A DNA stretch of 64,000 nucleotides from positions 224,224 through 288,223 of the forward strand of contig PASF01000002.1 in NCBI GenBank assembly GCA_002711845.1, read 5' to 3'. The number at the start of each line of letters is the position of its first letter. Positions within the stretch are counted from its first letter, which is position 1. Positions 36,010 through 60,684 of this stretch are shown here, one piece after another. The stretch comes from Gammaproteobacteria bacterium (GTDB lineage: Bacteria > Pseudomonadota > Gammaproteobacteria > Pseudomonadales > Pseudohongiellaceae). The notes under the pieces were generated by a model, which was not told where the DNA came from, did not search any database, and saw only the letters and a program-made list of their open reading frames with translations. Position numbers and translations under genes: made by a program.

Positions 36010-36050
36010 CAGGCCATGTTCAATTGAGAAATGAAAAAGGAGGTGATCCA

Positions 36051-36128
36051 ATGTCGAGTGATTCAGCTAAGGTTTCAATGGATGTTGGTGCAATTAATAA
36101 AGCTGGGAGTAACGACCTGGTGGTTTGA
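36051..36128 (+). CDS. 25-residue peptide gene with near-perfect Shine-Dalgarno sequence
   Basis: A 25-codon frame starts at ATG 36051: MSSDSAKVSMDVGAINKAG, then SNDLVV, stop TGA at 36126-36128. Upstream, AAGGAGGTGATCC (36037-36049) pairs with 13 consecutive bases of the canonical 16S rRNA 3' end, far stronger than any other site in this window. A promoter-like TTGACA precedes it and a strong terminator follows at 36180-36204. The peptide has no helix-forming hydrophobic stretch and no cysteine. An alternative 37-codon frame opens at ATG 36031 but has no good ribosome site and would use the purine run as coding sequence. Function unknown: peptide product, leader peptide, or regulator. Confidence 0.55.
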   Translation: MSSDSAKVSMDVGAINKAGSNDLVV

Positions 36129-36179
36129 TAACACCCCTCTCTGATTTCAGAGAAGGTTCCATTGGAGCCAGCATCACGG

Positions 36180-36204
36180 AAAGGGAGCCTAGGCTCCCTT
36201 TTTT
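36180..36204 (+). terminator. Rho-independent terminator after the peptide gene
   Basis: AAAGGGAGCCTAGGCTCCC followed by TTTTTT. The palindrome is near-perfect so it can work in both directions. Two smaller hairpins precede it: TCTCTGA-TT-TCAGAGA at 36138-36153 and GGTTCC-ATT-GGAGCC at 36155-36169 (one G-U pair). The GGAGCC of the second could alternatively pair with the GGCTCC of the terminator. Confidence 0.85.
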
Positions 36205-36224: not shown

Positions 36225-36352
36225 ATTGAAAAGCTATCTGCATTGCCATTGCTTCGTAAAAAACAGGTTCAGAGTGCTCATTTACGACGTGTAAACTCCG
36301 CTTCCTCACCTGTTTTCGGGTCGCACTGGCTGCCTCGATGACGCTTTTCAAT
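36225..36352 (-). repeat. Structured repeat element, copy B
   Basis: Read on the minus strand it matches copy A at 60561-60684. Ends are a perfect 10-base inverted repeat ATTGAAAAGC (minus strand 36352-36343) and GCTTTTCAAT (36234-36225). Inside are CGAGGCAGCCAGTGCGA (36337-36321), a middle stem AAAACAGGT/ACCTGTTTT, an inner stem TTTAC/GTAAA with a five-base loop, and the conserved tail ACGAAGCAATG. It lies between the peptide terminator and the transaminase start, 33 bases upstream of the GTG. Confidence 0.75.
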
Positions 36353-60560: not shown

Positions 60561-60684
60561 CTGAAAACGTTTTCGAGGCAGTCAGTGCGAGGCAAAAGCA
60601 GGCTTACAAGCGCAGTTTACAAAGAGTAAATGAACATTGTAAGTCTGCTTTTAACGAAGCAATGACAACGCAGGTGGTTTTCAG
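60561..60684 (+). repeat. Structured repeat element, copy A
   Basis: 124 bases with terminal inverted repeats CTGAAAAC (60561-60568) and GTTTTCAG (60677-60684). It contains a GAAAACGTTTTC palindrome (60563-60574), CGAGGCAGTCAGTGCGA (60574-60590), a 16-base-pair middle stem (60594-60609 with 60637-60652, one G-U pair), an inner stem TTTAC/GTAAA (60616-60630), and the tail ACGAAGCAATG. It sits between convergent gene ends, and its right end supplies the stop codon of the M28 gene. Copy B is at 36225-36352. Confidence 0.75.

Follow-up and report, generated by a model that had tools for sequence, protein, structure and literature searches.

Whether a transposon can carry a functional RNA is the question raised by two short, gene-less elements, copies A and B, in the window (the whole stretch of 64,000 nucleotides analysed here). 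MITEs are usually viewed as decaying remnants defined by their ends alone. The persistence of one fold from phylum to phylum in an element without genes, where unpaired bases stay fixed and stems are exchanged, suggests a working interior, and the family to which both copies belong supplies many natural variants and compensatory mutants with which to address the question. The same material poses the alternative question of whether replication errors alone can imitate RNA covariation, and either answer matters for the discovery of RNAs by covariation. The evidence favours a short non-autonomous MITE-like family with IS5-type ends, the interior fold of which is probably under constraint, most likely as RNA. 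The RNA part of this reading is preferred by a narrow margin, in the absence of transcript data.

Two copies of one folded element

An earlier note, made from the sequence alone, had described one copy on each strand with a fixed order of terminal repeats, stems and a central hairpin, and the positions, strands and block order that it gave all held (Table 1). Copy A is read 5' to 3' from position 36352 down to 36225 and is flanked by the genes of a Na+/H+ antiporter and an aminotransferase class IV; copy B sits directly 3' of a penicillin-amidase-family gene (ORF end 60533), with an M28 peptidase gene as its other neighbour (genes named by a protein scan). The further claim that no transposase is present held for the eight neighbouring proteins scanned, the remaining genes of the window being outside the scan. 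Exact (0-mismatch) occurrences of the block CGAGGCAGYCAGTGCGA in the window are confined to these two copies.

Table 1. Positions of copies A and B and of their parts in the window. G000 is the label of the window genome (3.59 Mb); R1 is the covariance model described in the text.
Feature	Position	Strand	Basis
Copy A, complete element	36225..36352	-	R1 118.3 bits, E 3.7e-29, at G000:C2:260448-260576
Copy A, 5' conserved block CGAGGCAGCCAGTGCGA, lower stem and internal loops	36321..36337	-	0 mismatches
Copy A, apical hairpin GTTTAC-ACGTC-GTAAAT, basal G-U wobble	36280..36296	-	Sequence reading and RNA folding
Copy A, 3' conserved block ACGAAGCAATGGC	36245..36257	-	0 mismatches
Copy B, complete element	60561..60684	+	R1 126 bits, E 2.4e-31
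Copy B, left end CTGAAAAC, terminal stem 5' arm	60561..60568	+	
Copy B, 5' conserved block CGAGGCAGTCAGTGCGA	60574..60590	+	
Copy B, inner stem 5' arm AAAAGCAGGCTTACAA, covarying helix	60594..60609	+	Fold and alignment covariation
Copy B, apical hairpin GTTTAC-AAAGA-GTAAAT	60615..60631	+	Sequence and RNA folding
Copy B, inner stem 3' arm TTGTAAGTCTGCTTTT	60637..60652	+	Sequence and RNA folding
Copy B, 3' conserved block ACGAAGCAATGAC	60654..60666	+	
Copy B, right end GTTTTCAG, terminal stem 3' arm	60677..60684	+	

In the orientations of Table 1 the two copies share one imperfect hairpin shape. Each has an RNA minimum free energy of -45.9 kcal/mol, with fold z-scores of -4.5 for copy A and -5.9 for copy B, and for neither was any of 200 shuffles as good.

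A covarying fold with fixed loops

The fold and its covariation are shown by an alignment of family members. Of 169 core-bearing elements collected, a length and motif filter removed 41 (inserts, variants or proximity to a contig end); from the 128 left, 46 were aligned without reference to structure (alignment A2). RNAalifold on A2 yielded 29 pairs, 20 of them with double changes. Pairing was found in 97.1% of 1333 cells, compared with 83.8% when the 3' letters were shuffled and 34-41% when partners were slid by 1-3 columns. Double-change cells numbered 163 against 34.6 in the shuffled data, and on all five measures none of 500 shuffles reached as high. The structure was derived from A2 itself, which favours it over the slid versions, and covariation was assessed by shuffles, slides and pair types across phyla rather than in a phylogeny-aware manner. 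The covarying structure that serves as a criterion of functional non-coding RNA is thus present.

Two claims of the earlier note can be judged here. The covariation it saw between two copies held and extends to the 46 sequences of A2, and covariation gives strong support to its suggestion that a secondary structure, of RNA or single-stranded DNA, is conserved, with strand asymmetry (below) favouring one functional strand. For its suggestion of a non-coding RNA, the fold covaries as expected; transcription is only inferred, without expression data. Neither outcome that would have refuted it occurred: covariation did not vanish in a larger alignment, and the family is not limited to two copies without homologues, there being about 12 loci in the genome and members in many other genomes.

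Outside the stems, two internal loops are largely constant across phyla: AAGG/AACG, and GSA/GA beside a bulged A. The apical stem is nearly invariant in sequences found by the core pattern because the search pattern forces it, and it covaries in copies found otherwise (GCGTAC/GTACGT, GTGTAG/CTACAT, GCTTAC/GTAAGT). Its basal G-U pair was kept in all 29 non-redundant rows not found by the core pattern, next to pairs that covary. The alignment behind this count drew on 83 of 101 rows, and, since the apical G-U was present in the sequences on which R1 was trained, the model is biased toward finding that pair. Both larger alignments, the pair-type alignment and that of 83/101 rows, were fitted to R1 and lean to its structure; the rows of the former were mostly pattern-found, and its fixed core bases are forced by the search. 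Some Mariprofundales copies have next to no inner stem, so that their two loop motifs meet; this suggests that it is the loops, rather than stem length, that are conserved.

Copy number and spread

The covariance model R1 was built from 46 sequences and 29 pairs. The model search and copy count proposed in the earlier note returned 16 matches at E <= 1 in the window genome, reduced to 12 distinct loci at E <= 1e-5 once two antisense duplicates, the second occurrence of a locus that recurs with an identical flank, and a remnant (E 0.3) had been removed. Exactly two of the genome's R1 loci fall in the window. Shortened copies at C2:92425 and C1:91883, and the remnant at C11:18048, retain their ends and lack the apical part. 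The doubled locus comprises the same element and an identical long flank at G000:C14:138576-138706 and C6:224784-224914, at a contig end and inside another contig, respectively, and is probably an assembly duplication.

Among relatives, blastn with copy B gave matches in 21 of 56 genomes, the window genome counted. Of 194 genomes from the order, 80 gave R1 matches at E <= 1e-4, as did 59 of 299 from the phylum at E <= 1e-6; no more than 17 and 11 candidates, respectively, were scored per genome, and per-genome copy numbers saturate. The core string AGTTTAC-N(3-7)-GTAAATGAGCATTTT occurs in at least 120 public genome stretches, for which the chance expectation is about 0.15 in 257 Gb, an estimate that takes base frequencies as equal. 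The 80 titled stretches comprise 37 Gammaproteobacteria, 25 Bacteroidota, 7 Nitrosomonadales, 4 Mariprofundales or Mariprofundaceae, 3 Desulfobacterales, 1 'Proteobacteria' and 3 uncultured. Taxonomy here rests on titles, and all 25 Bacteroidota stretches are titled as metagenome-assembled genomes; a plasmid-borne copy is found in the isolate Haliscomenobacter hydrossis DSM 1100 (R1 47.2 bits), with the compensated apical stem GTTTAG/CTAAAT.

Extrachromosomal sources were scarce. Two queries found no match in 50,697 phage records, and the core pattern occurred in 5 stretches of 2.9 million viral contigs. From 72,556 plasmids, one record matches copy B and nine match a Pseudomonas copy; a Halomonas copy returned 311 plasmid records at E <= 10, of which those inspected beyond the first 17 or so are short matches that we take to be chance. 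The family is therefore mainly chromosomal, and phage or plasmid cargo was rejected as an account of it.

No Rfam family matched at gathering score in the window or at 12 loci other than tRNAs apart from the elements, and nothing came near threshold for the elements searched. The core strings were not found in the open-licence PMC papers searched, and word searches there likewise gave no description. The family would also explain a repeat class in Pseudomonas, Halomonas, Alistipes and other genomes that may, as far as this limited search of open-licence literature goes, have remained unnamed.

Mobility and target sites

Mobility is shown by sites that differ between close relatives. The gene 5' of copy B was found in 13 of 15 genomes of the genus, with the element at the site solely in the window genome; the gene that follows copy A was found in 14 of 15, with the element in two, the window genome and G011, its closest relative in both protein comparisons. 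Empty sites were confirmed by a model search over all 27 loci, and in the two that lie at contig ends (L289, L305) the same search found no element. At the copy B site both neighbours are kept in G011, G013 and G006, with a short spacer in place of the element; in other relatives the downstream neighbour is different or the contig ends.

Elsewhere the family has sharp boundaries. Genome G292 holds near-identical 140-bp copies in eight fetched stretches with unrelated flanks, each copy running from GGGCGTGTTGACATTC to GAATGTCAACAGGGCC with TA abutting the ends; TA was present at both sides in six of eight measured copies. The same behaviour was seen in G283 (seven stretches, two sub-types) and G256 (three stretches). 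Elements bounded by CAGG...CCTG mostly have YTAR as flanking 4-mers, and left equals right in 17 of 41, against a shuffled mean of 6.5; none of 5000 shuffles reached 17. No clean target duplication was visible by eye at copies A and B.

The criteria by which MITEs are recognised can be set against these results. Target-site duplication is seen in CAGG-ended elements and in G292, copies are dispersed, multiple and mobile, and the elements stay below the 500-bp limit for MITEs, without a transposase gene and with terminal repeats (92-305 bp in G219 and 124-128 bp in the window, with paired ends). The MITE reading offered by the earlier note is accordingly well supported, by IS5-family ends (below), target duplication, insertion polymorphism and near-identical dispersed copies, and the family is very probably a mobile element.

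Terminal repeats and candidate helpers

The identity of the ends with those of IS5-family elements is likewise shown. Genome G219 has one core with two end types, CAGGCYGTTGAAAAAC and GGGCRCCTCTAAAAAC. Its class-B ends, GGGCACCTCTAAAAAC, are identical to one terminus of an IS5-family element that the genome itself carries, and a class-A end, CAGGCTGTTGAAAAA, is present at both ends of an IS5-family element in G130; both transposases exceed the NCBIfam IS5 cut-off. Further IS5-family ends in the order, GGAAGCTCTGCACAAC and GGAACCTCTGATTAA, resemble the ends of other elements, GGAAGCTCTGAAAAAG and CCTCTGATTAACG. Ends of the CAGG type number 52 and 50 on the two strands of G219 (one mismatch allowed), against 0 in the control, and among those inspected no pair about 1 kb apart was found that would indicate an insertion sequence with class-A ends. 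Sharing of ends with an autonomous element, another MITE criterion, holds in G219 and G130, with none demonstrated in the window genome. The criterion of a deletion derivative, with an interior taken from an autonomous element, is not fulfilled; the core was not found in 30 IS5-type loci (only match 12.6 bits, E 1.4).

Mobilisation in trans by an IS5-family transposase is probable and remains an inference. Both IS5-type transposase and element were present in 12 genomes, against 10.7 expected, so the two are uncorrelated; 14 of 26 transposase-bearing genomes lack an element match, and G130 itself had none in the order-wide R1 search. The window genome has one short PF05598 match and nothing in a search for IS5 transposase homologues, which means that no active helper is seen there. 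The lack of correlation suggests that helpers are transient or that other IS5 subgroups are involved. It is possible that helpers come and go, or that such subgroups serve, and this is a gap in the case.

Other partners were considered. Among ORFs within 4 kb at 125 loci no protein cluster spans more than five loci, and an adjacent partner gene was rejected; the clusters of that size look like common housekeeping families and not transposases (names by eye). Y1_Tnp was found in 12 of 16 genomes, and in neither of two element-rich genomes, G210 and G161 (at least 17 element matches each); a Y1/RAYT partner was rejected on that ground. The same result weighs on a broader rival, that the family is a single-stranded DNA element for an HUH/Y1 transposase (REP/RAYT, IS200-like) or an integron-like recombinase. 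The imperfect hairpin, the conserved unpaired bases and the one-strand polarity described below speak for it. Against it stand the absence of Y1_Tnp matches in the two element-rich genomes, the lack of replication-strand bias in G219 (19 leading and 25 lagging, p 0.45, for 44 copies oriented by end type and match strand, those with ambiguous ends excluded), and ends and targets that fit a DDE transposase. This rival is very unlikely, and the earlier note's alternative of a REP-like element is unsupported in the strict sense, on element size and on the same lack of a Y1 match in two element-rich genomes.

Working strand and relation to genes

A fold on the plus strand tolerates G-U, and the same pair becomes A-C on the minus strand. 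With the fixed wobble excluded, GU/UG outnumber AC/CA by 72:22 in 106 rows (out of 115 candidates), by 45:11 in the 55 of these that are non-redundant (p 5e-6) and by 24:10 in the 29 rows recovered without the core pattern (p 0.02). The strand asymmetry is thus shown, and the excess of G-U over A-C points to one working strand. That strand may act as RNA or as single-stranded DNA, between which these data do not separate.

A cis-acting host element, that is, an mRNA 3' structure, terminator or REP-like stabiliser serving host expression, is a second rival. It would account for the closeness of elements to gene 3' ends (median 20 bp, versus 73 bp from 5' ends, with a simple ORF caller) and for the 40 of 123 elements that lie between convergent genes. 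Against it, those of the 123 elements that lie in tandem contexts are not biased in orientation (23 sense, 34 antisense, p 0.18), both window insertions are polymorphic in the genus, and no U-tract was seen by eye right behind the hairpin in copies A and B. The rival is judged unlikely. Without an orientation bias a function in host mRNAs is unsupported, and co-transcription with neighbours in a fixed orientation was rejected for want of a sense bias.

Compensation at orthologous loci

Copies at the same site in different genomes bear on how the pairing is kept. Orthologous copies fell into 10 groups by flank similarity, in some cases judged from short flanks alone. Between copy A and its orthologue L045 there is, among other changes, a compensatory A-U to G-C pair. 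Over one pair of copies from each of six groups, 25 base pairs were changed on both sides against 8.5 expected under independence, and 21 of the 25 still pair; single changes broke the pair in 28 cases and kept it in 15, and so many pair-breaking changes imply that constraint on old copies is weak. A fold test on 13 orthologous pairs gave three with P < 0.05, three below the simulated mean and two level with it. Compensation at orthologous loci is real, but it is not clean.

An ordinary MITE is the third rival: the palindrome would be maintained without selection on the fold, as template switching or gene conversion rewrites one arm from the other. A template-switch mechanism has been published for RNA hairpins (PMC8794818), and this or conversion from other copies may contribute to the compensation. 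At L006/L055 the inner stem is wholly rewritten between short flanks 93-98% identical, which may be stem replacement and fits arm-copying, and the excess of double changes, yet with 28 of 43 single changes breaking pairs, also counts for this rival. However, arm-copying would erase asymmetric loops, and the AAGG/AACG and GSA/GA loops and the bulged A are largely fixed across phyla; nor does it sit well with the apical G-U in 29 of 29 rows and the G-U excess on one strand. Maintenance by copying alone is therefore considered unlikely.

One set of apparently orthologous copies differs in direction: in L203, compared with L032, L047 and L050, the window-genome element stands in the opposite orientation to its flanks, possibly by inversion in place or independent insertion.

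A proposed mechanism

In the preferred reading, the family would consist of short non-autonomous transposable elements, typically 124-140 bp, whose terminal inverted repeats would be recognised by IS5-family DDE transposases and which would be inserted at YTAR/TA targets. Unlike that of ordinary MITEs, the interior would be a conserved fold and not an insertion-sequence remnant, built of variable covarying stems, fixed loops (AAGG/AACG, and G-S-A/G-A beside a bulged A) and an apical hairpin whose basal G-U is constant. The fold would be read on one strand, most likely as RNA upon transcription of the element; less likely, it would act as a single DNA strand during transposition. Its retention would follow from better spread or better tolerance of the copies in which it is intact. 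Action as RNA is an inference, held as somewhat more likely than not, and the effect of the fold has not been shown.

A bolder reading can be entertained, for which the evidence falls slightly short: the structured domain, most likely RNA, would be the conserved payload of a gene-less transposon lineage. The several IS5-type ends, the spread over Pseudomonadota and Bacteroidota, the evolution by covariation and the plug-in modules in the loops (below) would then mark a transposable non-coding RNA, a step for which the balance again tips a little the other way.

Relation to known repeats

Prokaryotic MITEs that insertion sequences move in trans (PMC10969869) resemble the family in being short, gene-less, intergenic, foldable and multicopy, with IS-type terminal inverted repeats and target duplication; they differ in that the family's interior was not found in the 30 IS5-type loci and is conserved, with covariation, from Pseudomonadota to Bacteroidota. 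ERIC and Correia (PMC10969869) are likewise intergenic palindromic MITEs, as is NEMIS, and transcripts containing ERIC, NEMIS or Correia are processed by RNases. ERIC is present in E. coli genomes, in which blastn with copy B found no match. The pneumococcal BOX element (PMC3049150), described in pneumococcus and other streptococci, is similarly MITE-like, with modular internal units, a predicted RNA fold and variable length; the main text of that paper makes no mention of covariation.

REP/RAYT repeats (PMC3733652) are alike in being palindromic, dispersed, intergenic and of high copy number, and unlike in that the REP unit measures 20-40 bp, compared with 124-140 bp and IS5-type ends in the present family. 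REP repeats are mobilised in trans, by Y1 transposases. The R0, R2, R30, R178 and R200 repeats of Pseudomonas fluorescens (PMC2718517) are also intergenic, at 89-320 bp, and R0 and R2 have ends in common with insertion sequences (PMC2718517). R30 (120 bp), R178 (101 bp) and R200 (320 bp) may be earlier sightings of the family, their sequences being as yet uncompared.

Inserted modules and further observations

In long copies of about 170-305 bp the scaffold is unchanged and carries recurrent inserts, in varying combinations, at set places within the internal loops. This description comes from 20 G219 sequences that were read; a regular-expression table sorted 13 of 40 loci and was unused for counts. 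A module of 45-50 nt (CGACTGCATGGATGCAGGAGGTAGAGCG...) is found in either arm, and the window's genus has a similar one; of three orthologous copies there, two contain it and the third lacks it. The insertions, in two distant genera (G219 L232-L251; L005, L023, L033, L044), are at corresponding internal-loop positions, and the module may be a separate repeat.

Copies were mostly seen singly. Mariprofundales-type copies with the inner stem almost absent stand in tandem in a public genome contig (L182 3862-4098), and three tandem copies lie inside 500 bp at L186 819-1308.

Close to copy A, positions 36040-36180 of the window contain a perfect Shine-Dalgarno string, AGGAGGTGATCC, followed by a 25-codon ORF (36051-36128) and then by GGTTCCATTGGAGCC and a GC hairpin with a T-run. 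The tail of this arrangement is recognisable 5' of the aminotransferase gene in about 10 of 14 printed genus loci, and the whole resembles what could be a leader peptide or a structured leader.
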